Shown: one piece after another, positions 19,924-57,871 of the stretch
Position numbering within the stretch: position 1 is the stretch's first letter
Layout of the letters: each line of letters starts with the position of its first letter
Origin: Pycnococcus provasolii
Taxonomy: Eukaryota > Chlorophyta > Pseudoscourfieldiophyceae > Pseudoscourfieldiales > Pycnococcaceae
DNA length: 64,000 nucleotides
Reading direction: 5' to 3'
Assembly (NCBI GenBank): GCA_938743325.2
Contig: OW568872.1
Coordinates: 248,001-312,000, forward strand
Made by a program: the position numbers and the translations under genes
Notes under the pieces: generated by a model
Told to the model about the DNA's origin: nothing
The model's input: only the letters and a program-made list of their open reading frames with translations
Database searches by the model: none

Positions 19924-20044
19924 AGGTTTATAGACAGCCAATACCGACCAGAGTGTACCGACCCCTCACTATTCACCGACCAGACAGAGTGGGGATGTTA
20001 GTGTGGGGGCATGTCGTGCCATGTTGTCGTCGCACGGCGCAGAT

Positions 20045-30122: not shown

Positions 30123-31800
30123 GATATATCTGCAGACGACGTCGCTTTGCCTTCTCTGTGAATGCGCAGGCTGGCGATGTGAAGGCGATGCCTGATCTGA
30201 TGGTTCGCGCGTGTGAGCCAGTGATGGGTGTCAGGCTCGGGCTCGACCGCGTAGCTGCGAAGCTGCTTGAAGAAAAAGGCTTGAAAGAGAAGGATGTGCG
30301 CGTGATGCCGAGCCGCGCACATGAGGCTTGTTTTGTGGAGTACAAAGACAAGGGTCTAAAGACGGTTGTTGTTCGTGGCATCGTGCGTGCTCATGTGGAT
30401 ATGCAGGTTCGTGAGATTGTCGAAGATATTGTGAAGCCGCTGCTGGAGGAGATTGATGACGGGAGTGTGGATACGAGCCATGTTTGTCTGAAAGTGCTTG
30501 GAGGCAGCGAAGGGCTGAACGCCAAGGCGCTGGCTCATGATGTTGAAGTGGCGGTTGCTCAGAGCCTCGTGCCATCGCTGCTGCTCCATCGCGTTGGATG
30601 CGTCGGCGTGACTTTGGAGATTGGTGACACCGTTTGCGTGGACGTCGCGACGCCGTCTGGGTTTGGCGTGGCTCAGGTGAGCGTTGTGGATGAATTGCCG
30701 TCTCCATTTCCGTCTCTCGAGACCGCTGACGTGCGACGTCGAGCGGCAGCTCGCAAGGCTGGTGGATTCTTGATTTCAGACGCCGTAGAACTTCTGCAAC
30801 TCGCGAGTGATGGATGTGATGTGACAGATGTTGAGGAGTTTGTGCTGAGCGAGGAGGGATCGCTTGTTCCGGTGTCATCGCCACAAGCTCACAAGGAGGC
30901 TGTGGGCATGCGCGTTTACTCGCTGAAATTGAACGGATGTTCTGTGCTGATTGTTGGTAACGATCTTACGCACCGCGTCGCGTCGATGGGCGTGAAGGAG
31001 TGCAAGACGTTTGTGGCTGCGTGCGAGCGTGCGGAGAAGATGCAGACGCCTCTGCTCTTCTTGAACGCGTCGAGTGGTGCAAGGCTTGGTGTCGACGAGG
31101 CGATGAAGAAGATGCTGACTTTTGCGGAGGATGGCAAGCTTGTCGCGGGTGGCATGGAGGTAAGCTCGGTCTCGAATCCCAATGCTGACTACGGTGTGCC
31201 CAGTTTGTCTGGATGTGGGGCGACCGCTCGTGCGTACTCGAGGCTCTATGATAAAGGATTCTGTGTGACAATCTGCATTGGCAGGGCGGTCGGCATCGGG
31301 GCCTATCTGGCACGCCTTGGCCGCCGAACGATCCAGGTGGCTCAAACGCCGATCATTTTGACGGGCCAGGCAGCTTTGAATAAGGTTCTTGGGAAAGATG
31401 TGTATGAGTCCAATGCCCAGCTCGGTGGTCCTCAGATCATGCATCAGAATGGAGTCACGCATCTGACTGCGAGCAATTGTTTGGAGGCGATGAGACAGGC
31501 GTGCTGTCGGTGTGATCGCTACCCAGACGGCTACGACGGAGCTTGTGGTACCCGCCGATCCAGGTGACTTCTCTACTAGCGAACGCCGTATTCAGCACCC
31601 TGGATGTTTGTGGCTGCCCGACTCGGCGGCCAAGACGGCGGAGGCGCTCGAGGATATGGGGCGTGAACATCTGCCGATAATCATTCTTTCCAACTGGCGC
31701 GGATTTTCTGGAGGTCTTCGTGATTTGTTCGAAGGTGTGCTACAAGCCGGATCAGGCATCGTTGAGGGCCTCCGCAAGTACCCGGCACCCGTGTTCGCTG
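30123..31800 (+). pseudogene. ACC: Acetyl-CoA carboxylase fragment B (central and carboxyltransferase regions)
   Basis: In frame with the dynein tail from 29861, the sequence becomes multidomain ACC. The central region comes first (GLKTVVVRGIVRAHVDMQVR). The carboxyltransferase follows: CSVLIVGNDLTHRVASMGVK, LLFLNASSGARLGVDEAMKK, CIGRAVGIGAYLARLGRRTI and ALNKVLGKDVYESNAQLGGP, then QIMHQNGVTHLTA. About 100 residues of the family are missing after that. The frame changes near 31510 and continues as TTELVVPADPGDFSTSERRI and NWRGFSGGLRDLFEGVLQAG, which is the acyl-CoA side of the carboxyltransferase. Similarity ends near 31800. Biotin carboxylase and biotinyl domains are absent, so it cannot make malonyl-CoA alone. 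It is clearly a different paralogue from fragment A at 37900. Confidence 0.8.
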
Positions 31801-31811
31801 CGGCCGATTCA

Positions 31812-32085
31812 GGCGCGAGAGACCCGGCATCTCCTTTGAGTTTGTCTATGCGACTTTTGAGTGTTGCGGCGGAAGCCGATGCGCCTGCTACGTCATCCGC
31901 CATCCTCTTCCGAAGTGCCGCCGCTCCCGCGCTTGTAGGCTCGAACGGCAGCTGCTCGTACGCATCCGTGACACGCGCGATGGTTTCGTTGAGTGGTTGG
32001 AAGAGCGCCTGGATCGCGGAGGCGTCGGCAGTCACCCACTCGCACGCTCGTGCCGACGCAGACGACTCCGCGGCGCGATTCTTTC
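31812..32085 (-). other. Unidentified coiled-coil coding segment
   Basis: Beyond the ACC breakpoint, the minus strand reads as plausible protein: TADASAIQALFQPLNETIAR, then VTDAYEQLPFEPTSAGAAAL and RKRMADDVAGASASAATLKS. It has coiled-coil character. No start or stop context identifies a gene. It could be an exon of yet another displaced gene. Confidence 0.35.
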
Positions 32086-32127
32086 TGTCATCATCATCAT
32101 CATCATCGAACCCAGTCACGCTGCCAG

Positions 32128-32222
32128 TCACGCTGCCAGTCACTCAGCACTCTCTTCATTCTCAACAACAACAACAACAACAACAACACCGCTGCCAGTC
32201 ACTCAGCACTCTCTTCATTCTC

Positions 32223-32283
<61 letters not shown>

Positions 32284-32317
32284 CCGCTGCCAGTCACTCA
32301 GCACTCTCTTCATTCTC

Positions 32318-32348
<31 letters not shown>

Positions 32349-32406
32349 CCGCTGCCAGTCACTCAGCACTCTCTTCATTCTCAACAACAACAACAACAAC
32401 AACAAT
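32128..32406 (+). repeat. Compound (CAA)n minisatellite
   Basis: The unit CTGCCAGTCACTCAGCACTC TCTTCATTCT followed by a (CAA)n run and ACACCG occurs four times. The CAA runs have about 9, 21, 11 and 8 repeats. The array yields poly-Gln, poly-Asn or poly-Thr frames depending on phase, none convincing as a gene. Trinucleotide CGT/GCC repeats follow to 32520. Confidence 0.85.
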
Positions 32407-32520
32407 GGCCATCGCCGTCGTCGTCGTCGCCAAGGCCATCGCCGTCGCCATGGCCATCGCCGTCGCCGTTGCCGTCGCCGTTGCGACGAAGAGACAAATG
32501 CCGCCGCCGCCGCCGCCGCC

Positions 32521-33088
32521 GGAGGATGAGCCGCCGGGGCCGCCACGGGGCAATACAATGGGTGGTGTAATAAAGATGAACGACTCATGTGCAAATCATG
32601 CAATGCAGATTCGTGCTTCTATCTACCAACTAAAACTGCAGAATATGGCAGGTGGCAGGTGCTCACTTTTTGCCAGGTTGGCCAGCCAGGTAGGACCGTA
32701 GTATCCGAACATTAGTACTGTACAGTACAGTATCCATAGTCAGAACTACGGTACAGTACAACACAGGAGTTGGTTGGTGTACATAGTGGTACTACTACTC
32801 TCATATCCGCTCAATCCATCCTTCCGACTCTCCGAGTCCCACCCTAGAAACCACTACCCGGTAGTAGTGACAAGCCGCGGCCCGATATCAGAGTTGACCA
32901 ATTTTTTTCGAGAGAAATTAATAAAGTTTGAGTGGGAAATATAAAAACTTTACAAATATGAAGCACAGTGTCTGTCAATTTCTTGGTTCCCCCTAAAGGT
33001 GTTCCCCCCTCAGCCCTTCCCCTGCCAGCTCGTCCGTCCCCTCCCTTGCACCTTTCGCCACGCAATCACGCCAGCATCATTGGTAGTG
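32521..33088. other. Non-coding region upstream of the giant LamG gene
   Basis: No gene is seen. Near 32715 there is the palindrome GTACTGTACAGTAC followed by related GTACAG units, and at 32895-32960 an A/T-rich stretch. The last 90 bases before the start at 33089 are C/T-rich as with other genes in this window. Confidence 0.4.
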
Positions 33089-36000
33089 ATGAGTGCGCTC
33101 GTGGTGACCGACCTCGCGGTCTTGCTGGCACCAGCATATGCAAAGGTGAGTGGAGTGGGTGGTGTGCTACCGCGCATGGGTGGTGTGGACAGCAATCAAG
33201 GATGGCGACACGGATGAAGAGGTGCCGAGCGCTCTGGCGCGCGCGCTGCGGAACCTGCTTTCGTGCTTTTTTTTTGTTCTTTCTGTGGGATTCTCAACGA
33301 AACGCGCGCTTCAAAAAGGTTTGCCTCGAAAGGGGAGCGAAATGGCAAACGAGCACGCGACTTGCGCAGGAGATCGCGCAAGGTGATGCGACGACAACAA
33401 CAACAACAACACTAACACAAATACCCTTGCACTCTTCGTTCCCTTTCTAATCCTTCAGGATGAGACGTTGATTCGCTTCGACAGCAAGATGGCGCTGCAT
33501 TGGGACCCCGCCGCGGCGCGGTTCGTGTTCGAGGACGTAGTAGGCGTGCGCGTGTTGACGCGGTGTCAGTTCACAGACCACATGTGGCACCACGCCATGA
33601 GCGAAATGCCGACGATGTTCCTTGAGACGATGACGCCGCTGCTCAGTGACGCACGTATCGTTCCATCTAAGGGCGGTTACCAGACGCGCGGAGGAAAAAT
33701 CCCCGAGTTCAACCGCGTGGCCACTGACCCGTACCAGGTATTCTTTAAGTACGGATACTTTGAACAGGTGAAGAAGTGCCGTGTTCCGGAGGCTGGCTTC
33801 GTCAGCGACAGGTACATGATTGCTATTTCGAACGATGGCGGCCTGACCGCATCGAGCCCTCGTCAGATGGAAGTGGCTGAGATGTCCGTTTCGTACGACG
33901 GAGACACGAAGACGAACCTGACATACGCCATCGAGACGCCAGACGAGTTCACGCTGTCCTTCTGGTTCATGTCAAAGGAAATCGTCGTAGTCCCGTCCAC
34001 GGGCCGTCGCCTGAATCAGTTGCAAAGCACATTCGTGCCAGCTCAGTCAAACTGCATTGAGCAGACGATCATGGAGATGATGCCGGTTGGCACGGCGAAG
34101 GTTGGATTCTATCTGAACTGCACCACACTTTCCTTCTACAACGGTGTCCGCGAGAGGTCTGCCACGGTCTCGATCAAGCGGAAGAGCTGGCATCACGTAA
34201 GCGTGGTGCAAACACGCTTTGGCCCAGGCTTCGTGCGCGTCCGCCTTGACGGCGAGCTTTTCTTCGAGGACGAAATCATTGGCACCGACAGGCCTTCGCT
34301 CGGCGTTGTGGGAGAGAAGTTCAAGGGTCTCATCGACGAGGTCAAAGTATTTAATGAACGCATGTCCGACCCGCTAAACCAAGTTGGCTTCGACCGGGCC
34401 AATGTGAAGCCGGCGAAGCACTGGCGATTCAACATGCTGATGGACGGCGCTCTGTGCGTGAAAGGCGTTTCAGGAACGTGCGCTTTCGAATCGCACACGG
34501 CGCCGTGGGAGGCATCGATAATGTACTCGATCAATAGCAAGCCGCTTGCCATGCAGACGATGAAATCTGCTGGAGGCGAATTCATCGAAGTGGATGGCTA
34601 CAACTTTGCGCCCAGCAATTTCCTCGCATGCTCATTTGGCGTAAGCGCGGATGCATACAGCCACTTGCCTGCCGCATACGTCGGCAGCTCGATGACCTGC
34701 CCGTACCTCGCCACCATCCCGTCTGCCGCCCCCGTTGCAACGAGTCCAGGCGGCCGTCGCAATCTCCTTCAGCAGCGGGGAACGGCGCCGGTGGGAGAGG
34801 CCACGCTTAGCCGCCCAAATGGCGCTAACTATAGCGTGACAGCCTACCCAAGCTACAAATTGAGTCGCTCTCACCCGTCTCTGTCGCCTGGAACATACCT
34901 TGGGCAGACAATTTACTCGACGGAGAGGACTCTACACTGCCTCACGCCGGACGTTGAGCCGCACCTTGGCAACTTCGCAGTGCTGAATGGCCGAACGCTC
35001 ACGAAGGTGCCCTTCGAGCACACCGAGGTGGCAATGGAATGCGATGGCAAGGACGATTTCGCGCTGGCGAACCCTTGCTCGGGTCTGATCAAGGCACACG
35101 AGACTGGCTACTCGTTCTCGGCGTGGATTTATCCGTACGACGCTCCGGTGACTCGCGCCCCGCCTCCGAGCCCGCCGCCTCCGAGCCCGCCGCCTCCGAG
35201 CCCGCCGCCACCACCGCCGCCGAGCCCGCCGCCGAGCCCGCCGCCGAGCCCGCCGCCGCCGGCGAATGTTGGCCGCTCGCGCCGCAACCTGCTCGCGGAT
35301 GGCAGCGACAGCTGGACGTCCGATCCAATGGCGTGTGACGCGTCGGATTCATCGATGTGTGCTGCCAGCTCGCAAATTTCGAACCAGACGGACAACACGT
35401 TCGAGACGTGGGACACATCAGCGAAGAACGGTGATAAGCGCTTCGGAGCGACCCGGCGCACGCTGAAGGGCCATGCCGGTGCCAAGAAGGCGGAGACGAC
35501 TGTGCTCGCTTTCGAGGATCTCACCGGTGCCCACCAGAACTCGGCGCTTTTGATGTACGACGGAGAACGCTTCTTTTACTACGACGACAACATCCTCGAC
35601 GTTTTCTCTGTCACGCGATCGTCACCACCGAACGAGTGGTACTTCGTGCGCGTTTCAGTGAAGCGCAAGTCGCAAGGCGGCGCAGGGTTTGGAACTCTGG
35701 AGGTGAACGGTGAAATGGTGGCGAACTTCACCACAATGTCATTCCCCAAGGCAACGGGAAGTGTCACGGCGTGCGCTGACTACAACCTCGCGGGTGCGGC
35801 AGATTCATACTTCTACGGCCTCGTGGATGAGCTCACGATTTCGAGTGACCCGGACTACACGTACGACTTCATGAAGAAGCACCACCCGCATCCGCCAAGC
35901 CCCGTGCAGTGCTACTACGATTGTGCGCGCCACTACGTGCCTTCGCCGCCGCCACCGCCTGATTCGCCGCCGCCGTCGCCGCCGCCGTCACCGGGGACGA

Positions 36001-39000
36001 CGACGGCCGCTCCGCAGATGGCTGTGGCTGGCCGCCGTGCGATTGACGGTGGCCGACGCAACCTGCTCGGCGGTGGTCAGTACGGAATGGACGATATCAA
36101 GTTTGCGAAGATGCAAGCTTCGGAAGATGGAATCGGTGCATCTATTATTCCATTTGCACCACTCATCTCGTTCCACCCGGACAGCGGTGTGCACGGCACG
36201 GGCATGGTCATGGCTGACGCGTTCTTCTCTCCTGAGCCTTGTATGTCCACAGCACCTTGGATGCCGGCCACCATTCTGAGCATGTCACCGTCCACAGGAA
36301 CGGTCACGGGAGGCACTCCGGTGACGTTGACGGGCTCGAACTTCGCACGCAGCCAGTGGTTTGGCACATCCTTCGATAACGGAAAGACAGCGCTCAAGGC
36401 GACGATCACCGGTAAGATCACGAAGGAGCCGCTGAAGGTGGTTGTGACAACGCAGGGCATGGGCTGCGGCTATGAGAACGTCGTTCAAGCCACGAATGAC
36501 GGCAAATACTTCGGTGACACCCATGCTGGAAACTTTACCTTCACTCCGGAGCGTGCGGGACTGGAACTTGACGTTCTCGATCACTTGACGTTACACGGTC
36601 AGCAAGAGGGCTATAAGACAACAATTAATGTGGGATTGCCAGCCGCTGGTCGAGACATGGTGCCAAACACGGCTCGGACTCTTCCCATGACATTGACGCC
36701 GGCATACGTTACGCCAGTGACAAATGATTGGTTCAAGGTTGGACAGCCGCACACATTCATCTTCTGGATGTTCCTCGACAACATTGCGGGAAGTGCTTCG
36801 GCGCCTATCATCCCGATGGGCGCTTGGAAGATGGTGTCATTCGTGACTGATTCGTTCGATCATGAAGCTACGAATTTTACCGTGTACGTGAACAGCGCAC
36901 CCGCGTCAGCCGCGGAGGAGGCATACTACAAGTCCATGATGCCCACGTTCTTCTTCTATGGAAAGTTGACAACCGAGCTGACGTCCGTGGTAACAACTGG
37001 CATTATTGACGAGGCTTGGTTTTACGGACGTGCGCTGTCTCCGTGCGAGATCACATCTCGGTACTTCACGAGTCGTTATGCAATCGACATGACGAAGGAT
37101 CCCTCCGCGCTAGTTTCAGGCGACGTCAGCATCACACTGGACGAATTCCACATTGGCGCGTGGGTGTACCCGTACAAGCTCAGTGGCAAGCAAATTGTCG
37201 CTTCCACGGAAGGCACGAAGGCTGCCTATTGCGACACCTCAGACTCCTTCCTTACCTTTGGCGTGCAGGATGAGGCTGCGTGGCTCGCCGTCCACGTTGG
37301 ATGCAAGTCCGAACCCTGCCAGTCGTACCGCGAGGCTTACAGCTGGCGCACGCGCCTTTTGCCGCACCGGTGGTCGCACATCTCGGCGACGTACGATGGA
37401 ACGTCGGCGTACTTCTATGTCGACGGCATCCTCTCGGACAAGGTGAACTTCGCCGGTGGCGCGGCACCTCTCACGTCTGTTGGAGGCCCCGTGAAGACGT
37501 CAACGCTCGTGCTCGGGCAGGGCTATCCGAATGGCGCGGGCCTTCCCGGCACGTACGACTTCAACGGTGTCATCTACGACCTGACTATCGAGCAGGGCAC
37601 GCCCGCTGCATACGAGGTGAAGAAGTACGTGCAGTGCCCTCTTCGCGAATACACGAAACGTCTGAGTTTCTCGAGCAGCATCTATGACAACACGACAAAG
37701 GCGTCGTTCGGCAGTGTGAGCGGATTCGAGCCGCTTTTCGTCAACGCCACGAGCGATGCCATCGAAACGGATTTCCATGCGTCCACGTTCAGCGGCGCCG
37801 ATCTCTCCGGCACGAACTCGGGCAAGGTGGGCGACTTCACGGTGACGCGCCGTGGCTACTGCGGCCAAAAGCGCATGCGCGGCGGAGACCCGATCGTCGT
37901 GACGCAGGCGCTTTGCGATTCGACGCCGCCCGTTGGTCTCGATGAGCTGCGCGACCTTCTCGCGGGCAAGTCTGCGTACAAGTCGTCGAGCGGCATTGAG
38001 ATTGCCGCCGGCGACCTCGACGCGCTCGTCGGGTCACCTCTGCTGGCGGTGGACCTTCTCCCACAGCTCTTCGGCGACGACGACACCAAGGTTCGCGAGG
38101 CTGCCATTACTGTTTTCGTGAAGCGCATGTACCGCTCGCACCAGGTGCACGGCGTGGAGATTGACGAGGTTGCCGGCCTGCCGGTGGCGAAGTTCAAGTT
38201 CCAGTACGACACGCCGCCTCTCGAGAGCCCGATGCGATTTGGCATGCTCGCCGTCGCTTCCGTCATGTCCGACTTCGAGGCGAAGATGCCTCAGCTGCTC
38301 GAGAGGTACCAGGAGCTTCAGTCCGACGTCAAGAGCGACGGCGGAAGCGAGCACGGGCCCATCAACGTTCTGCACCTCGCGTGCACGGACGAGAAGGCGA
38401 CGATCGCGGCTGACGACGAGTCGGCTGCGTGCGCCGAGGCCATCTCCGCGTCCGTCAAGTCGATGGGAGAGGCTTGCGGGCTGAAGTACGTGAACGTGAT
38501 TGCCCACGAGTCGAAGCAGCTTCCCCGCTACTACACGTATACCGCGGCGAAGGAGTACGCGGAGGACCCGCTGTACCGCGGATGCCGCCCCACGCTCGCT
38601 CATCTTCTCGAGCTCAGCCGCCTCCAGAACTACGAGCTGACGCGCATCCCCACGTTCAACCGCGACCTTCACATTTACAGCGGCGCCGTCACGGGCGGAT
38701 CTCGGCAGATGCCCCAGCTGCTTCTCAGGCGCATCACGCACTCGAAGGACGTCATGGACGGCGGCCTCGAGCGCATCACGACCAAGGCGCTCGACGGCCT
38801 CGACCTCGCGGTGCTCGACCCGCGCGGCAACACGTGCTCGAGTAGTCGCATCTACGTCAACTCCATCCCCGAGATCGCGGCAGTTGGCGGAAATGCCGCG
38901 GCGACCGCACGCGAGCTGAGCAACCGCATCGCCGACTTCGTGTCGCAGAACGCCGCTCGGCTGCTGAAGCTGAATGTTGACGAGATTGAGTTCAAGGTTC

Positions 39001-42000
39001 GCATCAAGAGCATCGGCGAGGTGGTCCCCGTTCGCCTCATGGCGTCGTCGCTCTCCGGGCAGTGGTTGAAGATGGACATCTTCCGCGAGTACATGAACCC
39101 CGTGACAGGTGCCGCGACGCGATTCTGCACGTACGGAAGCGAGGACGCGTCGCAGCCCGAGGTGTGCTTCCTCGACCCCTACCCGATTCCTGGAAATGTC
39201 GACCGCAAGCGCACCGCGGCGCGTCGCATCGGGTCAACGTACATCTACTACGACTTCCTCGGAATCTTTGAGAAGTCGGTGGTGTCCAGCTGGGTGCAGT
39301 ACCAGAGCGAGCTGAAGGCTGCCGGAGCCGACGTGCCGTCGATGCCCGCCGGACCTCTGTTCACGGCGACCGAGCTCGTGCTCGACGAAGCCACCGGCCA
39401 GCTCACGCCGGTGAAGCGCCAGCCGGGCGAGAACAACGTCGGCATGGTGGCGTGGAAGTGCTCTCTGAAGACGCCCGAGTACCCCGCGGGACGCGAAATT
39501 GTGCTGATCGGAAACGACTGCACGTACCAGAGTGGATCTTTCGGCGTGTCCGAGGATGACGTGTTTGCTGCCGCGAGCAAGTATGCGCGTGAGACGGGCT
39601 TGCCTCGCCTCTACATTTCGTGCAACGCAGGCGCTCGCATTGGCCTCATCGAGGACGTGTACGTCGTTGGCGGAGCTGCGGGCAAGACGCGCCACTACCT
39701 CAGCGACGTGCTCAAACTGTCAAATGTCGACGGACAGGCTGACAAGCTCGCGTCATTTTCGTACCGCGTTCCCATCGCCGTCAAGGCGGCCAGTACCTCC
39801 GACTCTGTGGCGGTAATGATGGAGCTCGACACCGCCGCACTCGTGAGTGCCGGAAAGCTGAGGGCTGACTGCGCAGATCTTCTCGTCACGGACGGCAGCA
39901 ATGGTGCCACGCTTCCCTTCGTGGTGGACTCGTTTCTCGGGTGCAACAACGATAAGACGTTGGTGTTTCCTCGTCTCGGGGCTGGTGCATTGGCGTCCGG
40001 CGCGACGAGGATGCGGGGGAGAAGAGTTTTGAGTAGCCAAATTCTCTCTCTTCTTCTCCTCCTGCTTTTTCTCCCTGAGGCCGCCGCCGTTGCCACATCC
40101 GCCACAGCCGCCATAGCAGCCGGAGCCACCGGGGCCGCCGCGGCCGCAGCCATAGGCACGGGCGCAGTCGTCGCCGCCGTCGCCAAAACCGCAACCGCGA
40201 CAATTAAATCGCTGTTTGGCGAATCTTCGTACGAGAGCATGTTCGAGGCTGCAAATGCCTCGGCATATCGGTCTGTCGACGCAGCTAGCACGCCACCTCC
40301 GCCACTACACGACGCGGGTGCGGCTATCCGCCTTGCCGATCTTCTGCTGTACGAGTCTCTGTTTGCAATTCCCACCGCCGACGCCCCTCTCGTACGCCAT
40401 CTGGCACCCGGCGCGGCAGCGGCGGCCGCAGCCCGCCGTGCGTGCTTAGCGATGCTGCGATGCTGCGACGGCAACGAAGGGCTCGTGCTTCTGCACAATC
40501 GTCTCAATTTACTCCACAGGGATTTGTACGACAAGAGCAGGCAAAGTGAGTCGGAGGCTGAGACATGGAATGCGCTCGTAGTGGATGAGCCGGAGGAGGG
40601 AGCGGCGACGATCACCATCGCAGACAATATCGACGACGATGTGCAGATGACATCCGTAGCCCATGATGCGGAGATTATAGATTGCACGGTGCCTGTGAAG
40701 CCTCACTGCCCTCCTGTTTCAGCTTTGTTTCAGCTTCAAAAGTTACCCGCGGATATTTCTGATATGACGGTGTCGCCCGGCATTCGTGCTTGGATTCCAC
40801 CAGCGGCGAACGCTCCATCGCCATTTCTCGAGAGTGTGACAAAGGCTGATCCGCATGCAACGCCGAGCGCGGAATCTGGACTGCTTCCTTGCGGTTTGAG
40901 GAATCTTGGCTCGACGTGCTACATGAACTGTATCCTCCAGCAGCTCTTTGCCATGTCCGATTTTAGGGCAGCCGTCATGGGTGTCGATCTCCCTCCCGTG
41001 GCCGAGGCTGAGGCTGAGGCGAACGCGGCAGCGACGACTGACGAGGCTGAGGTGAAAAAGCAGGCAGATGCGCGCGTGCTGCGCGAGCTTCAGTTGCTCT
41101 TTCACGAAATGGAGCATACTGCCGCGGTGTACGCGGACACGGAGAGGTTCGTCGATGCATGCCAAGGCGATGCATGCCACGGCGCGCTAAGTCTTGAGCA
41201 TGGAGTCAGGCAGCAGAACGATAGCCAGGAATTCCTCGATCAACTCCTGGATGTGATTGGTCGTGCGCTAGCTGCGGCACGCGGAGCCTCGGGGTCCAGT
41301 GCGACTACGACGCCGTCGCAGGCGGCGCCACGCGGTGGCGAATTGAACGCGCCGTTCGGCGGTGAGCTCGTTTCGTCGACGAGCACGCTTGCGCCCGTCG
41401 CCCAGTTGTCTGGTGCAAAGGCTACACATCTGGTGCGCCCGGATGTTCGCGAGCCGTTCAAGTTCCTTGCGCTGAGCGTGCGAGGTCACCAAAATGTCAC
41501 GGCGAGCTTGGCGGACTTTGTGAAGGGTGACGTTGTCGAAGGCTTTCGCTACGAAGAGCATGGCAACCAGGAACTTACCTCGATCAAGTACACTCGCATT
41601 TCTGTTCTCCCTCGTCGTCTCGTTCTCAATCTAAAAAGGTACGAGTTTGACGTATCGGTAGAGGCCTATGTGAAGGTGCACGATCTGTTCGAGTTCCCGA
41701 TGGAGCTCGACTTGACGGATTACACGACGACTCGCGGTGCATCGTCGTCGTCTTCCCCGGCGAGATACCAGCTGGGTGGCGTGGTGGTCCAAAGCGGGAA
41801 CGAGGCGAGCGGTCACTACTACTCGTTCGTTCTGGACCGAGAAACTGGCCTTTGGACGCGCCGCAATGATCGCGAGGTGACGCCGTTCGACCCGGGTTCA
41901 AACGGCGAGAACTTTCGCACCGAGTGCTTCGGTGGCAAGACTGCTGCCGACGAGGGCGCTACGACCATGCAGGACATCACACGTTCAGCCTACATTCTCT

Positions 42001-44978
42001 TCTACGACCGCGTGGAACCTACCGAGTCGCGATCGACGAAGCAGCAGGCATCAACCGGCATCGCTGCTGCATCCGTGCCTAGCCTGCGTGCGTCGACGTG
42101 GCTGTCCGTGCTGGAGGCGAATGCTGCTCTGAGTTCGCAGGCTCGCTGGGCATACCTTAACGCGCCACATGATGGCGATGCCAGCGAGGGGGCTGCCGAT
42201 GAAGAGCAGCGTGCCGCAAAGCGCAAGCGACATGACCAATCTGCTGCTGCTCTCTCGCCCGCGGCGAATGCTCGCCTGGCGTCGACGGCGAGCCGAAATG
42301 CTCATCTTCTCAGGCATGCTCAGTTGACAGATCCGGCGCACGCGCACTTCGTTCGCAAAGCTGCGTCGTTGGCACTTTCGTCATTGCAGTCCGGCGTCGC
42401 GGACAACGATGCCGTGACGCTTGCCACCGCAATCTGCGCCTCCGGCACGTCGCTTCTGACGCACGTTGCAAGCCGCTGCGCGCTTGACGCGTCGCGTTAC
42501 GACTGCATTCGTGCTACTTGGGCGGAACCTTTCGCCGACGTGATGCGTCGTCATCCAGCGTACGCGCGCCAGTTCATTTTGGACGTATGCGCGAAAGATC
42601 CGATGGCGGCGCAGGAACCTGTTGAGAACCTGCAATGGTTGGGTCCTGGCGAACCTACGATAGCAGCACTCGCGAACAGCCATTTCGTTCGCGCGCTCGT
42701 TCGCACACCACGAGCCGGCGTGCGTGCAGCGTTCGCCGCGATTCTCTCCGCCGCGGCGACGGCACTGTGGCGGTGTATGGGCCCGCTGTACACCGGCCCG
42801 TCGGGCGATCCGATCAGCTTCGTCACGCAGGATGAGGCACGTGGTGCGATGAAGGTGCTGTGCAATACGGTCACCCGCGTTGGGCTCGCGTCGTCAGATG
42901 CGGCTTTATTTGCGGATCACTGGGTATCGTTCCTGACTGTGGCACGCGATCTGCTTGAGATGGGTGCAGCAGATCCTACGGAACAAGATCCGGAGAAGCA
43001 GCCTTACTTGGAGAATCTCGATTACATGGGATCGCCGTACAATATGTTTATCGACAATCCGATGATTAATATGCTCGCGCGCTTTGCGCGTGCTGGTGCT
43101 GCTGATGTGCATGTGCCCGGACCTGTGGTGGCAACAGTGCCAACCGCGGCGGCGACGGCGGCGGCGGCGGCGGTTTCCCTGTCCGAGAACTCTTCCGTGG
43201 GATTTTTGCTGGCGAATTGCGCAGAGCTCCTCACGCGTGGATGGCATCACGATCGTACAATCGAGGCGACGGAATATATTCGCCAGGTGGAAGGCGTCGA
43301 AGTCTGGAGCCAAGACCAGCCTATCTTGGGTCTTGCACGCCTGGCGGACAAGCAAGGCTCGGAGAATGCGCGCATCGTGCTGTTTCGGCTCGGGGGGTAT
43401 CTCCATCGTGAGGTGACTCCGGCGGTCGCCTGCGACATTGCCGTTGCCTTTGCTCACAAGTCAACGGATTCTCCTCCCAATGGCGGTGGCTTACAGGGCT
43501 ACGCGTTTGGCGCGCTCGTCAGCTGGCTCGACGGTCTGCACGAAGGCGACAATGGTGTTGGCGACCCTAACATGAAGCTTGCGCCCATGGCACTGGAGGC
43601 GTGCATTGGATCTGAGCGCGGGTTGCTCGAGGCTCTCGAGGAGGTGCAGCGTCGCCAACCGTTGCGTCGTCAGCGCTTGAAGAAGTTGAGGGGCATCCTG
43701 AGCAAGCTCTACCAAAACTCGGAGGCTGTGAAGTACTGGTGCCAGCACTGGAACTCGCAGGCTGGACAGGCTCTCGTTACCATTGTGCAGCAGATGGAAG
43801 AGCAGCACTTTTCCATGGACGCTGAAGACGAAGACGTAGACGACGTCTACAGCGACAACGAACACGACGACGAAGACGTGGACGGGAGACATGCCTCGGC
43901 GGCGATTCGTCGCCACCGAGGTACCACGGAACCACCGCCACCACCACCGCCACCGCCACCACCGCTACCACCGCTTCCAATCGGATCATCTGGCGCCGGC
44001 GCACAGGCGGACGACATCGCGCTCTTTGTTGAGAGGGTCGATGTCATACCCGTCGCCACACATGTGTGTGTGCATGGCGTCAACAAAGTCATGGTGAAGT
44101 GTTGCCGAGAGCTCCACCACTATCAACCGTTGCTGCAATTTCGACCATCTGGTGGAGAGGGGTCATCGAAGAAGCAGGCAGCGGAGTTCGACCTTAACTG
44201 GGCGGCTTTGATGAGTGCCGCAACGTCACCGCGTCCAATTCTATGTTCGGGATTGCTGCCGGTAAAGACATCCTTTGGCATGTTTCTCCTCAACGCCCTC
44301 AAAGGCATCGAGGCGTGGAGGGTTCGCACATGCGAGCATTGCAGGGCTATCAATGGGCGGTCGCAGACTAATCCTTTGACTAAGATAGGCGCGTGCAAGC
44401 ACTGGTACATTTTGGAGACAAAGGAAAAGCAGTGCGTGCAGTGCCTTAAAATTGCAGATTGCGAACTGGACCATCGGCCAGGAACGCAAGGTGGGCATCA
44501 CAGGCTCAGCGATACTCACTGGTGGTCGACGCATGGTGGCGTCGAAGCGATGAAGAAGGAAAGAGACAAATGTGATCTTCGCTGCGCGACGTGTCACTTG
44601 ACTCAAAAAACACACAGCATATACAAGACAAAGGAGGGTGCTAGATTGGACAGATCGAAAGATGTGCGCCGGGACTTCGTGAACGCGCGGAAACGACAGA
44701 TCGGGCGGTGTGCCGACTGCGATGCCTTGGTGGTCGAAGGATATGAACATTGTTTTTCCTTCGCGCACAAGGATGCAGCAACGAAGGACCCCCGCGGTAG
44801 CATCTGCCAACTCGTCAACTTGGGTTGTTCGATCGAAACCATCAAGAAAGAAATTTCTTTATGCCTCTTGAAATGCGCTACCTGCCACAACAAGGAGACC
44901 AAGGACAGGCGCAAGGATTGGTCAAAGGTGGCATCATCTCCTCCTTCGTATCCGACCGTCGGGATGGATTTTAATTAA
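33089..44978 (+). CDS. Giant chimeric reading frame: secreted LamG/IPT protein + ACC + DUF2341 + USP + HNH-like
   Basis: Exon 1 (33089-33145) encodes a signal peptide (MSALVVTDLAVLLAPAYAK) and ends at a consensus donor (AAG|GTGAGT). The acceptor TTCTAATCCTTCAG|GATGAG ends a 313-base intron at 33458. The second exon then stays open to 44978, giving about 3858 residues. The first 1480 or so residues form an adhesion-type extracellular protein. LamG-like folds lie at 33940-34360, 35107-35860, 36560-37060 and 37140-37600. An IPT/TIG domain is at 36265-36550 (ILSMSPSTGTVTGGTPVTLT). SPPP linkers are at 35158-35262 and 35942-36000, and a filamin-type Ig start near 37830. After that come ACC, DUF2341, USP and HNH-like parts, listed separately. 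The frame is unbroken, but such a combination has no known precedent. It may be several genes fused by rearrangement or an assembly error. A separate start for the USP part at 40011 is possible. Confidence 0.6.
33146..33458 (+). other. GT-AG spliceosomal intron
   Basis: The donor is AAG|GTGAGT at 33146 and the acceptor is a C/T-rich tract with CTAAT and TCCTTCAG at 33445-33458. Removing it joins a signal peptide in frame to the LamG protein. It contains T-rich and (CAA)n stretches but no gene. Confidence 0.75.
37900..39672 (+). other. ACC: ACC fragment A inside the giant frame
   Basis: From about 37900 the frame is multidomain acetyl-CoA carboxylase. The central region reads LLAVDLLPQLFGDDDTKVRE, AAITVFVKRMYRSHQVHGVE and LYRGCRPTLAHLLELSRLQN. 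It continues through the family block VLDPRGNTCSSSRIYVNSIP and DFLGIFEKSVVSSWVQYQSE. The start of the carboxyltransferase follows: REIVLIGNDCTYQSGSFGVS and RLYISCNAGARIGLIEDVYV. The similarity stops there, in the middle of the carboxyltransferase. The N-terminal biotin carboxylase and biotinyl domains are also absent. Sequence quality is good, with no stop in 590 residues. It fits a recent duplicate or a displaced piece of a working gene. Confidence 0.85.
39757..39990 (+). other. DUF2341-like segment inside the giant frame
   Basis: Following the ACC fragment, the frame reads FSYRVPIAVKAAS, then MMELDTAALVSAGKLRADCA, DLLVTDGSNGATLPFVVDSF. This is the pattern of DUF2341, a beta-sandwich found in secreted proteins together with LamG. 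It therefore belongs with the extracellular part of the frame, so the ACC fragment appears to sit inside a surface-protein gene. Confidence 0.6.
40011..43960 (+). other. USP-type ubiquitin C-terminal hydrolase part of the giant frame
   Basis: The catalytic domain lies at about 40885-42020. The Cys box is GLRNLGSTCYMNCILQQLF, with the catalytic Cys codon at 40917. The His box is GHYYSFVLDRETGLW, with its His at 41814. The blocks NDSQEFLDQLLDVI and LPRRLVLNLKRYEFDV are the other USP signatures. It belongs to the large USP9X/24/34-like group, which remove ubiquitin from proteins in cytosol or nucleus. The long helical region after it (42020-43790) fits those enzymes. The ATG at 40011 is followed by a hydrophobic stretch (ILSLLLLLLFLPEAAAVA), so an independent gene could start here. 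An acidic stretch and a polyproline run (43800-43980) lead to the zinc module. Confidence 0.8.
44310..44975 (+). other. HNH-like paired zinc module at the C-terminus
   Basis: Two cysteine/histidine modules end the frame. The first has TCEHCRAINGRSQT, CVQCLKIADCELDHRPG and, later, CDLRCATCH. The second has CADCDALVVEGYEHCFSFAH and CLLKCATCHNKET. The order C-x2-C, then D-H or F-x-H, then C-x2-C-H is that of treble-clef HNH domains, including those of nucleases in algae and their large viruses. The first module keeps E-L-D-H. Fusion to a deubiquitinase is unusual. Whether it cuts DNA cannot be judged from sequence. Confidence 0.55.
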
Positions 44979-45073
44979 GTAACTTGAGAATAACGTTTTT
45001 GCATTATTACATCAACTTACATCAACTAAAGCGCCCACGCCACCCACCAACGTCGTCGCCGCGAGCGGCAGCG

Positions 45074-45229
45074 TCAGCCTTGAACGCGACCGCCATCTCG
45101 CTCGCAAGGTGGCGCTGCTTCTCGAGGATGAGGAACGTCGCGACGCCAACGCCCTTCGTGCGCTCAACAGCCTTCTGAGCGTCCGCCGTGGTTTCCTCGA
45201 CGTGGTGGTTGAGCTGCGGGCATGCGGTG
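45074..45229 (-). pseudogene. SMC4: Duplicated SMC4 hinge fragment
   Basis: These 156 bases repeat 54457-54618 almost exactly and in the same orientation. They differ by a 6-base deletion and about three substitutions. The original encodes part of the SMC4 hinge. Here it is joined to the end of a polyketide synthase frame. Confidence 0.85.
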
Positions 45230-45231
45230 TC

Positions 45232-47744
45232 CGTCCATCTGCGAAGACTCCGTCATCGTGAGCCCGAACAGCTGGACGGACAGCAGCGCGTTGCGCAGAT
45301 AGCTACCGAAGAGCTGCTTGAGCTCGAGGTCGCTCTCTGGACCTGCCTCGACGTCCCATCTCTCGTGCGGTACTTCGGTGATTGTGAGCGCGTGGATCTC
45401 GTCCGCGTACGCCGTGCGGCGCGTGTCGAGCGCATCGCACACGCCGCGATCGCGAAGCAGGGCGCGCTTGCGCGGTCCGCCCGCTGTGCCTACGACGTGC
45501 GCGCCGAGCGTGCGCAGCACCTCGAGCGCGGCGAGTCCGACTCCGCCGGACGTCTCCTGCACGAGTACGCGCGACTCCGGCGTGGCTTCTGTCGCACGCG
45601 ACAGCGCCATGTCGACCGTCACGAACACCGTCGGCGTCGTCGCCGCGGCGGAGAACGCAATCACGTCCGGCTTGCGTGCCGCAGAGTACACAGACGTGCG
45701 CGCGTGCGAGCCCAGGCAGCCGGGCGCCAGACCCAGCAGCGACTCGCCTGCATGGAATGCGCGAGGCGCCAGCGGTGACACGGACACAGCCACGCCGGCG
45801 CAGTCGGCGCCGGGCGGACCCGGTCGCCGGGGTACATGCCGAGCACGTTCAGCACGTCGCGGAAGTTGACTCCCACAGCCACCACGCGCAATGTCATGGC
45901 GTCCGCGCGATCGGATACGCCCAGCGCGTCGAGCGCGTGCGCCTTGAGGCCCGTGAAGGCACCGCGAGGCATCGGCTCGAGCTGGAAGCGACGTACCGTC
46001 TCGTGCGCTTGTGCGTGTAGCAGTCTCGATCGGAGCAGCGCGCCCGCGCGAGCCGCGGCGCCCTGCGCGTCGCCGAGGTCAGCGCCGTCGCGCCTGCGCT
46101 TGCGTCGACGTCGACGTCGACGCACTGCACCTGCGGCAGCTCCGCTGCGGCTGTGCGTAATATACCCCACGCTGACGCGAACGCGACGCCGGGCCACGTG
46201 CGCGCGGTGCCGGCTGCTGCACTGACTGCGGCAGGCGCGTGCGCGCCACGCGTGACGAGCTCGAAGCGGCGTACGCGGAGCATGCTCGCGCACTGCGCAA
46301 GCTCAAGCATGCGAACCGACGCGCTCAGCACGCGACAGTCCGCCGAGGTGAGGCGGTGCGAGATACCAACCACGCCCGTCGCGATCGGCGTACCTGACGC
46401 CTTCCTCGGCTGAGCCAAAGCGGGCGCGGAGCCTGTCGTAAGCACGCTTCCGCCGCGGCTTGCCAAGAGCGCGTCTGACTCGTGCAGGCCCGCCGTCGCC
46501 GCGATGGTCCATCGCATCTCGTACAGGCACGTGGCGCCTGTGACAGGCTGCGTAACCTGCGATCCGCCTGCGGCGGTCGGTCGCGCGCCAATCACACGAG
46601 CATCGAGCTGATGGAGGTTCGCGAATGCGCCGCCTTCGCGATCGACGATCCAGTGGTTGCTGATCGCGGACGCATCGCTCGAAGACACGGCGCGAGCCAT
46701 GACCCACGCGTGCGTGTCCTGCGATCGACGCGCGATCGTGTATGCGCCGAGTGCCGCGGGCACGCGCGTCGCCGACTGCTCCTAGCTTGCAGTAGCGGCG
46801 TACGCAGCCGCGCTCACCTGCATGGACGCGTCGAGCGTTGCCGGATGCACGAAGCATCCGCGACGTACGCCGACATCGTCGATCCACAGATGACCAGCCA
46901 CGACCCCCGCGGCGTGCGAGGGTCGACGGATACTCGTGAGCACGGCGAACGCCGGGCCGTACTGAAGCCCAGACGCCGCGACGCGCTCGTATGCTCCCAC
47001 CGCGCCAACCGGAGAACTCGCTCCCGCGCGACCTGCACTCAAGTTCTCCAGCGAAGGCAGTGACTCAAAGGAGACACGGTGAGCGCGCGGCTGCCTTCCA
47101 TCGCCGTGCTCAGAGACTGTGGGCGTTCTGCTGCTCCCTGGCATCTGAAGTGCACCAGCACTACTCGTGCTTGCTGTTGCTCTCTCGCGCTCCTTGTCGG
47201 TGCCACCCCACGGTGGCGGGATTCCGCCGTCGAGGCTCCATACAGACGGCGCTAGGCTCGGCGTGTCGCTGACGCAACTCGTGGGACTGATTGAGCCGGT
47301 GGGGGCAACGATGCGCGGGCTTCCGTGCGCCGCGCGGTGCGTTGTGTACGAGTATATCGTGCTCGCACCCACGTCGCTTCCGATGTGGTCAACCGTGCTC
47401 ATGCCGTCGTCGTCCACGCTCTCCACGCTCCTTGGCGCCGCTGCTGGCCTCATTTTCATCGTGTATGACAGCGTAACTTCGCGCTGCGCGACGTTGAGCG
47501 TCGAGCCTAGTCCAGCCAAGGGGTCGTCGACCCCGGGGACTCCGACGACACCCATCGACGCCGGAGCGCGAGGCGACGACGCTGCCGACGCTGCCGACGA
47601 CAAAGACGACGGATACACCACCACCACACCTTCTAAGCACACGCCCAGTTGACGCGGAGAATGACGGAGGGGTTCTGTGGCACGCGGCAGCGCCCCGGAG
47701 GAAAAGTAATGGGGAGGTGTCTTTTTAGCCTTAAAAAGACACAT
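45232..47744 (-). pseudogene. Type I polyketide synthase fragment (DH - structural KR - ER - KS start)
   Basis: Reading minus strand, a serine/proline-rich linker is followed by a dehydratase C-terminal part (ASGLQYGPAFAVL, GCFVHPATLDASMQV). An in-frame stop lies near 46780. The same frame goes on with GAYTIARRSQDTHAWVMARA and the pseudo-KR/KR region (ASAWGILRTAAAELPQVQCV). After a frame change near 46090 comes the enoylreductase start VVAVGVNFRDVLNVLGMYPG. After another near 45815 come SLLGLAPGCLGSHARTSVYS and LVQETSGGVGLAALEVLRTL. The end resembles a ketosynthase N-terminus (EVPHERWDVEA) before it runs into the SMC4 duplicate. Prasinophyte-type algae have very long modular synthases of this kind. 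This is a broken piece of one module. Confidence 0.75.
47717..47743. repeat. Short hairpin upstream of the PKS fragment
   Basis: GTGTCTTTTTA and TAAAAAGACAC form 11-bp arms with a 5-base loop. Just after it, GAACTGAAGATT at 47749 matches the last bases of both 179-bp repeats at 19.0-19.9 kb. Confidence 0.5.
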
Positions 47745-47957
47745 CCCAGAACTGAAGATTAGGGTTACGGATAAGGTGGCCAGGGGGCCTAGAGCTGAAA
47801 CCCCAATTATTTACATGGAGATGACACGTTATTCGTACGGCACTTACGGAGCGAGTTTTCACGTATGCAACGTCCATGACGTCCTTAAGCAAACGTAGTA
47901 CACGCGTACGAAGAAATAATTACTAATAGTCACTAATAGTTCCTCTTCACTTCTCCT

Positions 47958-47978
47958 CCTAACCCTAACCATAACCCT
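47958..47978 (+). repeat. Telomere-type tract at the left edge of the satellite
   Basis: CCTAACCCTAACCATAACCC directly precedes the first satellite unit and is C-rich on the plus strand. Confidence 0.75.
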
Positions 47979-49918
47979 GCAGGCTGGCAATTGTGCACCC
48001 GGCTTAGCCGCGTCGAGCTCGCGCGCATCGCGGGTGGTAGCACGCGCAAGGAGGCACCTGTGGGCAGCTTTTGTCAATGCTGGCGAAGCGCTCGGTGCGC
48101 AGAGCGTTCGCGAGACGCGCATGAACATAACCCCGAATCCAGCCTGAATGTTGAACTTTTTCTTCTCTGGCGCATCCGTCTCCGAAACGTGCACCCGGCT
48201 TTGCCGCAGCGTGCATGCGTTCGTCGTGGGTGGTAGAAGGCGCGAGGAGACACCTGCGCGCAACTTTTGTCAATGCTGGCGAAGCGCTCGGTGCGCAGAG
48301 CGTTCGCGAGACGCGCATGAACATAACCCCGAATCCAGCCTGAATGTTGAACTTTTTCTTCTCTGGCGCATCCGTCTCCGAAACGTGCACCCGGCTTTGC
48401 CGCAGCGTGCATGCGTTCGTCGTGGGTGGTAGAAGGCGCGAGGAGACACCTGCGCGCAACTTTTGTCAATGCTGGCGAAGCGCTCGGTGCGCAGAGCGTT
48501 CGCGAGACGCGCATGAAAGTGAACCCTAACCCTAACCCTAACCATAACCCTAACCATAACCCTGCAGGCTGGCAATTGTGCACCCGGCTTAGCCGCGTCG
48601 AGCTCGCGCGCATCGCGGGTGGTAGCACGCGCAAGGAGGCACCTGTGGGCAGCTTTTGTCAATGCTGGCGAAGCGCTCGGTGCGCAGAGCGTTCGCGAGA
48701 CGCGCATGAACATAACCCCGAATCCAGCCTGAATGTTGAACTTTTTCTTCTCTGGCGCATCCGTCTCCGAAACGTGCACCCGGCTTAGCCGCGTCGAGCT
48801 CGCGCGCATCGCGGGTGGTAGCACGCGCAAGGAGGCACCTGTGGGCAGCTTTTGTCAATGCTGGCGAAGCGCTCGGTGCGCAGAGCGTTCGCGAGACTCG
48901 CATGAACATAACCCCGAATCCAGCCTGAATGTTGAACTTTTTCTTCTCTGGCGCATCCGTCTCCGAAACGTGCACCCGGCTTTGCCGCAGCGTGCATGCG
49001 TTCGTCGTGGGTGGTAGAAGGCGCGAGGAGACACCTGCGCGCAACTTTTGTCAATGCTGGCGAAGCGCTCGGTGCGCAGAGCGTTCGCGAGACGCGCATG
49101 AACATAACCCCGAATCCAGCCTGAATGTTGAACTTTTTCTTCTCTGGCGCATCCGTCTCCGAAACGTGCACCCGGCTTAGCCGCGTCGAGCTCGCGCGCA
49201 TCGCGGGTGGTAGCACGCGCAAGGAGGCACCTGCGCGCAACTTTTGTCAATGCTGGCGAAGCGCTCGGTGCGCAGAGCGTTCGCGAGACGCGCATGAACA
49301 TAACCCCGAATCCAGCCTGAATGTTGAACTTTTTCTTCTCTGGCGCATGCAGGCTGGCAATTGTGCACCCGGCTTAGCCGCGTCGAGCTCGCGCGCATCG
49401 CGGGTGGTAGCACGCGCAAGGAGGCACCTGTGGGCAGCTTTTGTCAATGCTGGCGAAGCGCTCGGTGCGCAGAGCGTTCGCGAGACGCGCATGAACATAA
49501 CCCCGAATCCAGCCTGAATGTTGAACTTTTTCTTCTCTGGCGCATCCGTCTCCGAAACGTGCACCCGGCTTTGCCGCAGCGTGCATGCGTTCGTCGTGGG
49601 TGGTAGAAGGCGCGAGGAGACACCTGCGCGCAACTTTTGTCAATGCTGGCGAAGCGCTCGGTGCGCAGAGCGTTCGCGAGACGCGCATGAACATAACCCC
49701 GAATCCAGCCTGAATGTTGAACTTTTTCTTCTCTGGCGCATCCGTCTCCGAAACGTGCACCCGGCTTAGCCGCGTCGAGCTCGCGCGCATCGCGGGTGGT
49801 AGCACGCGCAAGGAGGCACCTGCGCGCAACTTTTGTCAATGCTGGCGAAGCGCTCGGTGCGCAGAGCGTTCGCGAGACGCGCATGAACATAACCCCGAAT
49901 CCAGCCTGAATGTTGAAC
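47979..49918 (+). repeat. 196-bp satellite array (about 10 units) with internal telomeric repeats
   Basis: The marker TTTTGTCAATGCTGGCGAAG recurs ten times, spaced about 196 bases (48069, 48265, 48461, 48654, 48850 and so on to 49830). Two alternating variants exist in the half before the marker: one with TTAGCCGCGTCGAGCTCGCG, one with TTTGCCGCAGCGTGCATGCG. A tract of CCCTAACCCTAACCCTAACC with ACCATAACCC variants interrupts it at 48524-48562. Units are near identical, so the array is young or homogenised. Long frames on both strands are a by-product of the repeat, although the minus frame (FNIQAGFGVMFMRVSRTL) could descend from an exon. A diverged inverted unit is at 58237. Confidence 0.92.
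48524..48562 (+). repeat. Interstitial telomere-type repeats inside the satellite
   Basis: Three perfect CCCTAA-type units and several ACCATAACCC variants end in CCTGCAGGCTGGCAATTGTG. The same junction to the satellite occurs at 47978, so telomeric DNA and the satellite have been duplicated together. Confidence 0.85.
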
Positions 49919-50492
49919 TTTTGTGGTCCTCCTCGCTCATGCCTGCGGCAAAGGCTGCGGCAGACGCCGCGGCGCGGCGGCGCACATCTTTGAGCCGAGG
50001 AGTTTGTGTCTGGAGAAGGCGACCAACGCTAACACCGTTCTTAGGAGTTTTTTTCGCCGCATCTGCCCTCACTTCTGTGGAGTACGCGCGCGACACGTCC
50101 ACGTACGCCCACTCGTGTTCGGCGGCGTCTGCACTCATAGGCAAGTCGTGAACTGGTCCATCCGCGAGAACAGCCTGCACAGGCTCGTCGTCTTCAAACT
50201 GGACGTAAGCATAGGTGGTTGATTTCCTCGAGCGTGGGTCGCGCTCGATCTCGACATAGCTGACGCTTCCAAACTGCTCGAAGTGCATCTTCACCGTGCT
50301 CGTCTGCATAAAGACGGGAAGGTTATGAATGGCCAGTCGGCCTGGCTGCACGACGCGTTTTCCACCCGACTGTATGATATCCCTGACTAACTTCGGCCTG
50401 GGCGCTTTCGAGAGAACGGCCGTTGTGCGAACGTTCGTTCGACCGGAGCAGCTCACGCCTCGCGGTCCACGGGTGAGCAGACACACCTGCAT
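49836..50492 (-). CDS. RRM-type RNA-binding protein with satellite-derived C-terminus
   Basis: The frame is open from 50642; the ATG at 50492 gives about 218 residues. A single RNA-recognition motif lies near residues 45-110: RNP2 is LAIHNLP and RNP1 is TYAYVQF, with the expected spacing (TVKMHFEQFGSVSYVEIERD between). The following alanine/lysine-rich helix (AAASAAAFAAGMSEED) is normal protein. The last 28 residues, from KSSTFRLDSG on, are read from the first 196-bp satellite unit, so the true 3' end has been replaced by satellite DNA. It may be a truncated gene that still yields a stable protein, or a pseudogene. Target RNA is unknown. Confidence 0.6.
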   Translation of the reverse strand: MQVCLLTRGPRGVSCSGRTNVRTTAVLSKAPRPKLVRDIIQSGGKRVVQPGRLAIHNLPVFMQTSTVKMHFEQFGSVSYVEIERDPRSRKSTTYAYVQFEDDEPVQAVLADGPVHDLPMSADAAEHEWAYVDVSRAYSTEVRADAAKKTPKNGVSVGRLLQTQTPRLKDVRRRAAASAAAFAAGMSEEDHKSSTFRLDSGLCSCASRERSAHRALRQH

Positions 50493-55749: not shown

Positions 55750-56319
55750 ATGGCATCGAAAACGAGAAACATACGCTCTACGCGCAAAAATCAAATACAT
55801 GCCGACAAGCTAAAAAACCTTGGATTTTTCGCACGGAAAACGTTCCGTATTTCTGAAAAGGACTATAAAATTTTGACCACACACCTACTAACCTCTATCT
55901 ATTATCCAAATGGTTCAAAATATACCACCGCCGAGGATGGAATCGACGCGCCATTCGTGATGTTTAAACACCAAGGTAAACCATACAACAACAGAGGTGC
56001 AAAAAAAACCCTATTTGAAACAGCGATGAAGGTCGCAAATAGGATCAGCAAAACACTAGACCTCGGAGACCCTAAAGAGGTTTTCTTGAGGTGGTATACA
56101 TCCAATGACAAACCCCCACTTCACGAAGATGGGACCGAATCGACAGCCTTAGTCGTCCTCCGACCAGGTCGCGCAGAGCTAATAGCAGTCGACCGCAAAA
56201 CAAATGAGGAATTATCACTCAAGCCCCAACCAAACCAGGTAATTCATTTCAGTGGAAAATTACCGCATTACCTAAAAGGTAGTGTTAAGGGCAGGGTTAC
56301 GCTTGGTGTTCATTTTTAG
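55750..56319 (+). CDS. 2OG-Fe(II) oxygenase-like protein in an AT-rich island
   Basis: This 189-residue protein ends in a pattern typical of the double-stranded beta-helix of 2-oxoglutarate/iron dioxygenases. Metal ligands would be H-x-D in PPLHEDGTES and the distal His in IHFSGKLPHYL, and the 2OG-binding Arg would be in GRVTLGVHF. The N-terminal part is lysine-rich and helical. Such enzymes hydroxylate or demethylate proteins or nucleic acids; the substrate is unknown. Codon use and base composition are clearly AT-richer than the neighbours, and the gene has a short AT-rich promoter and no intron. Both suggest acquisition from a virus or other foreign source, which is inference. The frame is intact and ends at a TAG followed by T and G runs. 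Confidence 0.65.
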   Translation: MASKTRNIRSTRKNQIHADKLKNLGFFARKTFRISEKDYKILTTHLLTSIYYPNGSKYTTAEDGIDAPFVMFKHQGKPYNNRGAKKTLFETAMKVANRISKTLDLGDPKEVFLRWYTSNDKPPLHEDGTESTALVVLRPGRAELIAVDRKTNEELSLKPQPNQVIHFSGKLPHYLKGSVKGRVTLGVHF

Positions 56320-56434
56320 GGTTTACTGGTAACGCCTTTTTTTTTTTTTGGGGGGGGGTGGGGGGTTGAGACTGGGGTCCAGTTAACAAGCGTATCAGCC
56401 AAAAGAGATCGTCATCTTGGACGACGAAGTGTGA
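56320..56434. other. T-run and G-run spacer
   Basis: About 13 T residues are followed by runs of G (56337-56365). This marks the boundary between the AT-rich oxygenase island and GC-rich UTP18 sequence. Confidence 0.4.
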
Positions 56435-57858: not shown

Positions 57859-57871
57859 TATATTTTTCTTT

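Follow-up and report, generated by a model that had tools for sequence, protein, structure and literature searches.

A mosaic open frame of Pycnococcus provasolii as a probable young chimeric gene formed by serial segmental duplication

In the chlorophyte Pycnococcus provasolii a single open frame passes through domains that appear to belong to unrelated genes. Such a locus raises the question whether the frame is one gene, several genes or a chance join, and from where its parts were obtained. We analysed it within a stretch of 64,000 nucleotides (contig OW568872.1 of assembly GCA_938743325.2, positions 248,001 to 312,000 of the forward strand), hereafter called the window. Positions without a prefix refer to the window, and the frame and its pieces lie on its plus strand; contigs of the same genome are cited as C35, C32 and so on, C12 being the one that holds the window. 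From stop to stop the frame extends over 33387-44978 and counts 3863 codons. The gene model consists of exon 1 (33089-33145, 57 nt, phase 0), which begins with the ATG at 33089 and encodes MSALVVTDLAVLLAPAYAK, signal-peptide-like by sequence alone, an intron of 313 nt (33146-33458, GTGAGT...TTCAG) and exon 2, which ends at 44978. The initial annotation had described one open frame of about 3858 residues after a single intron; upon recomputation the coordinates were identical and the product came to exactly 3858 residues. Paralogues on C35, C19 and C2 have a similar leader and identical splice sites, and the same intron measures 308, 309 and 312 nt in them, respectively, a length spread of 1-5 nt over the four copies. 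The segment 32565-33094 is common with the C2 paralogue (94% identity for 32565-32706, 85% for 32780-33598) and is a possible inherited promoter and leader.

The frame is far longer than chance would give. In 300 mononucleotide shuffles of the DNA, read in three forward frames each, the longest frame had a mean of 193 codons and a maximum of 340. Stop-poor DNA, the exception that had been allowed for, does not account for this length: each of the five larger pieces described below is open in only one of six frames, and the 226-bp spacer alone is open in more. The phase in which the pieces are joined therefore matters. In-frame passage through the junctions had also been called improbable for random joins. 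This holds insofar as the frame is beyond chance, but the large pieces were coding frames already, so that the argument must shrink to the coincidence that is left, namely phase, at 1/3 per join. Moreover, the frame was picked for its length, and its in-phase joins are to that extent ascertained.

Alignment to the remainder of the genome identifies the frame as a DNA-level mosaic of pieces copied from at least three ordinary genes. The view that its domains come from unrelated genes and that the frame passes their junctions unbroken was borne out. The order is the leader and LamG part of a LamG-DUF2341-Kelch gene, the middle of an acetyl-CoA carboxylase (ACC) gene, a return to the surface-protein gene, a spacer, part of a USP9X-like deubiquitinase gene and, finally, an HNH-like tail. 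The LamG/TIG part (33459-37936; Pfam and alignment) was copied from the C35 gene as far as C35:338642 (minus strand), with 98.6% identity between 33592-37936 and C35:342989-338642. At 33592-33598, where 7 bp overlap, the window has an in-frame deletion of 1095 bp relative to C35 and C2. The ACC fragment (37937-39653, about 572 mid-gene codons) is a copy of C32:557430-559144, which lies inside an ACC frame of 2222 codons; aligned from 37936 to 39653, the two are 98.5% identical. Pfam finds in this piece only ACC_central 302-711 and Carboxyl_trans 1-62, and the Pfam search of the frame returned no biotin carboxylase, no biotin-carrier domain and no full carboxyl-transferase domain for it. The ACC piece sits where 2.7 kb of the surface-protein gene belong. 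The surface-protein frame resumes in phase afterwards, with 355 bp (39654-40008) copied from C35:335949-335595, further down the same C35 gene, at 97.5% identity. This fragment corresponds to the first part of DUF2341 plus the stretch preceding it. The C35 parent matches DUF2341 (Pfam, E 3e-6), and no Pfam match to it was obtained in the window, neither over the whole frame at E <= 0.1 nor for 39654-40586 at E <= 0.5; by comparison with its C35 parent, the window's DUF2341 is a partial domain.

The following 226-bp spacer (40009-40234) contains an in-frame ATG at 40011 and a long, strongly hydrophobic stretch and is identical in a second copy of the mosaic on C4; the DNA search of the own genome gave no source for it among the 38 of 172 candidates scored. 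The deubiquitinase part (40235-43808) is a copy of C12:753717-757467, the last two fifths of the parent frame, with 96.8-98.5% identity. Its UCH domain is complete (profile positions 1-254 of 254, Pfam), and motif strings which we take to be the Cys-box and the His-box begin at residues 2498 and 2802. The closest solved relatives of this part by sequence are USP9X/FAF-X (PDB 5wch, 7yxx); the mosaic resembles them in the complete UCH profile and differs in that it has lost the first three fifths of the parent and carries the remainder behind LamG and ACC pieces. An acidic, proline-rich spacer of low complexity (43809-44016) leads to the tail (44017-44978), which holds an HNH-like zinc region (44307-44975) and the stop and contains fragments related to C38, C4:685731-686084, C3 and C12:315973-316174. 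A viral origin of this tail was set aside, there being no relative among the viral contigs scanned. Over the whole frame Pfam matches Laminin_G_3, TIG, ACC_central, the start of Carboxyl_trans and the full UCH. Of the domains listed initially, LamG, a partial ACC and UCH are found by Pfam and a partial DUF2341 through the C35 parent; the HNH label has a match in PHROGs (phrog_2255, E 7.3e-10) and none in Pfam or NCBIfam.

The parents persist elsewhere with long frames of 3520 codons (C35), 2222 codons (C32) and at least 3188 codons (C12). The C32 protein is identical to a P. provasolii ACC in 2184 of 2184 residues. An ACC query of the genome found six places: C32 in full length, C12 and C4 over the mosaic piece only, all of these close, and three others with 68-70% identity. 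The pieces of the mosaic are roughly 96-99% identical to their parents, with a divergence of about 1-3% overall. Alignment to the parents put breakpoints at 37936, 39653/39654 and 40008/40009, one for each of the three junction intervals proposed initially, and added others at 40235, at about 43808 and at the internal 1095-bp deletion. The joins are sharp and show little homology, with about 0-2 bp in common at 37936 and 39653/39654, where the edges meet to the base, and a short match around 40235.

We consider it probable that the locus is a young chimeric nuclear gene of P. provasolii, assembled at the DNA level, with its frame kept, in several successive segmental duplications. A copy of a LamG-Kelch surface-protein gene would have retained its own 5' flank, leader and intron. 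An ACC stretch would have replaced 2.7 kb of this copy in phase, and a USP9X-like fragment and the HNH-like tail would have been added downstream, likewise in phase. The character of the joins suggests that templates were switched, or ends joined, where there was little homology. Afterwards the mosaic was copied between C12 and C4 within a block at least about 16 kb long, a duplication that is observed. Transcription would probably start from the LamG promoter. That the fused frame is still open would be due to the loss of out-of-phase variants or to its youth. A single gene, two genes and an untranslated relic all share this mosaic DNA origin, and the probabilities that we attach to them overlap. 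A retro-copied chimera was set aside, since the LamG leader still has its intron.

The second copy was found by querying with the parents. On the minus strand of C4 it shows the order LamG-ACC-DUF2341-spacer-USP-tail with joins as in the window, and its open frame has 3853 codons according to the search tool, which matches 3863 less 13 plus 3 for four indels. The common segmental duplication comprises 31795-47900 of the window, its right edge lying at or beyond 47900, and about 847378-863321 of C4 (minus strand); the direct comparison covers the block on either side of 34400-36300, and identity over 31795-34400 is 94%. Compared base by base over 38154-45578 (MAFFT), the C12 and C4 copies differ by 54 substitutions and 4 indels in the frame and by 0 substitutions in the 600 bases after it; BLAST counts 44 mismatches and 14 gap openings over the same interval. 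The divergence is uneven, with 53 differences in 4744 positions of the USP part and tail versus 1 in 2681 positions of the ACC-DUF-spacer part plus the 600 bases downstream (Fisher p 1.3e-9). Among the 25 differences in the USP part, 8 are private to the window, 6 are private to C4 and 11 have both states among other copies, as gene conversion would give. The tail comparison (44109-44207 versus C4:850303-851442; MAFFT) gave 28 substitutions in the 1170-bp tail, 12 of them within 44193-44207. Such clustering beside 600 identical bases has the look of a replaced patch or of error-prone repair acting locally.

Evidence for keeping of the frame comes from the copies and their paralogues. All 15 consolidated coding indels (11 distinct ones among paralogue alignments, with one C7 end truncation left out, plus 4 between C12 and C4) are multiples of three under MAFFT, whereas other duplicated blocks give 8 of 25 (Fisher p 1.3e-5), these being four block pairs aligned with the same gap setting irrespective of coding status, of which some overlap open frames and one is poorly aligned. 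BLAST splits many coding indels into gaps of 1-2 nt, and in coding blocks the phase is back within 1-6 nt. There are exceptions: compared with C12b and C7, the first C12c block is off phase for 16 nt at its far edge; the C19-C35 match begins with 91 nt off phase, which we take to be intron; the tail of C12b and the match to C38 are the others. The count of 15 of 15 is aligner-dependent; net phase is kept under both MAFFT and BLAST. The window frame keeps its phase over its breaks. Of 8 large breaks listed by hand in the paralogues, 7 keep the phase (binomial p 0.0026), a count that overlaps with that of the indels, as the 174-bp and 51-bp events sit in both. The phase-kept breaks are differences of 4.3 kb, 174 bp and 51 bp in USP copies and, in the LamG family, a 2.9-kb break between C2 and C35, a 1.7-kb break between C19 and C35, a 912-bp tandem unit and the array end in C19. 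The exception is C12b, in which the join of USP part and tail is out of phase and the frame ends soon after. Two post-fusion indels fall in short repeats which favour multiples of three, and the LamG-family breaks could keep phase merely via recombination between in-phase repeats.

Two of the paralogues have structures of their own. The LamG paralogue at C19:110290-118911 (L035/L036) contains about eight near-identical, in-frame tandem copies of 912 bp in a frame of 2874 codons. A USP derivative at C7:271301-277342 (L029/L030) has lost 4.3 kb in phase with its frame open, and about 500 unrelated codons stand in place of its C-terminus.

Frame-keeping is better supported than protein function, because the indels keep phase while the substitutions are near the expectation without selection. 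Counted on DNA alignments, 20 of 30 polarised private substitutions on the window branch are nonsynonymous, as are 40 of 54 in the C12-C4 pair, versus an expected fraction of about 0.73; unpolarised pairs gave 13 of 23 for ACC and 20 of 29 for the rest of LamG. Purifying selection on the amino-acid sequence was looked for in these counts and not found, and the amino-acid changes look neutral.

The explanation that competes best with a young chimeric gene is that coding pieces were joined in phase by luck and form an untranslated relic, open only through its youth. We regard this as conceivable, though on the whole somewhat improbable. The neutral-looking substitutions agree with it, and so do the aligner dependence of the indel count and the ascertainment of in-phase joins, the long frame being the reason for which the locus was found. 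In a set of 5.8 billion proteins, moreover, none of the candidates scored in the length range was a transcript or annotated protein that carries the joins. What argues against it is the net phase held at coding indels, as compared with 8 of 25 in the other blocks, and the fact that the C12 and C4 copies are both open. In addition, 0 stops in the window frame arose from the 30 window-private or 54 C12-C4 substitutions, two sets that partly overlap; this is a weak point, since its chance is about 0.08 (computed for 83 substitutions at 3%).

If the locus is a chimeric gene, its transcription is plausible, because it has kept the LamG-family leader and intron together with the 5' flank. Guided by the leader, the chain would enter the secretory pathway, and no role is known there for the ACC piece. 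Most likely the fusion does not work as an ACC, since only the central ACC piece remains. Our guess is that the complete UCH domain is the part that could act, and the hydrophobic spacer might, again as a guess, be a membrane anchor. Overall, a function of the fusion is doubtful.

The same spacer invites a division of the frame into two or more genes, the first with LamG, ACC and DUF2341, the next starting at ATG 40011 with a signal-peptide-like leader and continuing through the USP part and tail. Although the spacer does open with an ATG in the frame, and its product is strongly hydrophobic over a stretch, we think such a division unlikely: there is no stop in 11.5 kb, which would leave the first gene without a stop of its own, and the C4 copy preserves the same arrangement.

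Chimeric genes at duplication breakpoints are already known. In yeast, according to the accessible text of PMC2518615, breakpoints of segmental duplications carry chimerical ORFs at microhomology joins with the parents intact, three of them in-frame and three out-of-frame. As in Pycnococcus, new ORFs stand at breakpoints while the parent genes survive; the yeast joins, as presented in that text, were recovered in the laboratory, whereas Pycnococcus has four or five natural joins in one frame and a product that was reduplicated. From P. provasolii itself, the accessible text of PMC8209157 describes Dualchrome1 (DUC1), a phytochrome-cryptochrome fusion. DUC1 is likewise a fusion of different proteins in the same species, but as described there it joins two photoreceptors, whereas the mosaic combines pieces from different compartments with an incomplete ACC part. 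Besides DUC1, the PMC titles and abstract openings listed included no paper on chimeric duplicated genes in P. provasolii. As an open mosaic from several sources, in two copies and with parents approximately 1-3% diverged, the locus is a good natural case of how a new multi-domain protein may originate without exon shuffling.

Related chimeras exist among database proteins. P0122 of Pseudoscourfieldia marina, named acetyl-CoA carboxylase at NCBI, has a USP9X-like N-terminus, ACC in the middle and USP again. It resembles the mosaic in that the same two parents, an ACC gene and a USP9X-like gene, are fused in one frame, and differs in its breakpoints and order, with ACC inside USP and no LamG match. 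P0002 of P. provasolii, which bears the same NCBI name, is an ACC in which one segment, about 400 residues long, occurs three times. Neither arrangement was found in the present genome among the six places given by the ACC query. Because of this, comparison of these sequences indicates that ACC has been rearranged more than once in Pycnococcaceae, at least once with a USP gene outside the present genome. Annotators should be warned that both proteins, P0002 and P0122, are rearranged or chimeric despite their name. On a wider interpretation, large genes with hardly any introns would be shuffled continually in Pycnococcaceae in a way that respects the frame, with ACC, USP9X-like and LamG-Kelch genes as recurrent donors and with fusions that are expressed and filtered by selection; we rate this as quite unlikely. 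If true, it would mean domain shuffling without exons, with leader and LamG outside, the spacer as a possible anchor and deubiquitinase and HNH inside.

Capture of the gene pieces by a mobile element of the Pack-MULE, Helitron or CACTA type is very improbable. Gene fragments side by side on the sense strand do resemble captured-fragment arrays, and dispersed repeats lie close by, but long terminal inverted repeats did not appear in a search of 31-48 kb (arms of at least 18 nt with a 12-nt exact seed), which gave simple-sequence arms rich in GC plus two weak pairs, and the pieces sit within a duplicated gene having its own leader and intron. A dispersed element at 18888-19930, made up of roughly 770 bp and 274 bp, occurs at dozens of places in the genome.

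A misjoining of reads from separate loci by the assembler, which recent duplications such as those filling this region can mislead, is extremely improbable because C4 carries a second copy with the same joins as C12; the pieces also diverge from the parents and hence are not parental reads, and the accessible text of PMC11130579 reports 444-fold HiFi coverage and QV 58.2 for the CCAP190/2 assembly. The fusion is real DNA, present on two chromosomes.

Two further blocks of the window, 56183-59079 and 60503-62625, are also duplicated on C4 (840496-843437 and 867899-870010, respectively). Their orientation is opposite to that of the mosaic, so the neighbourhood shared by the window and C4 has been rearranged. 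Between the mosaic and these blocks, at 47960-49922, lies a satellite-like array with a spacing of about 196 bp, which is common to C19:105-110 kb and partly to C40.
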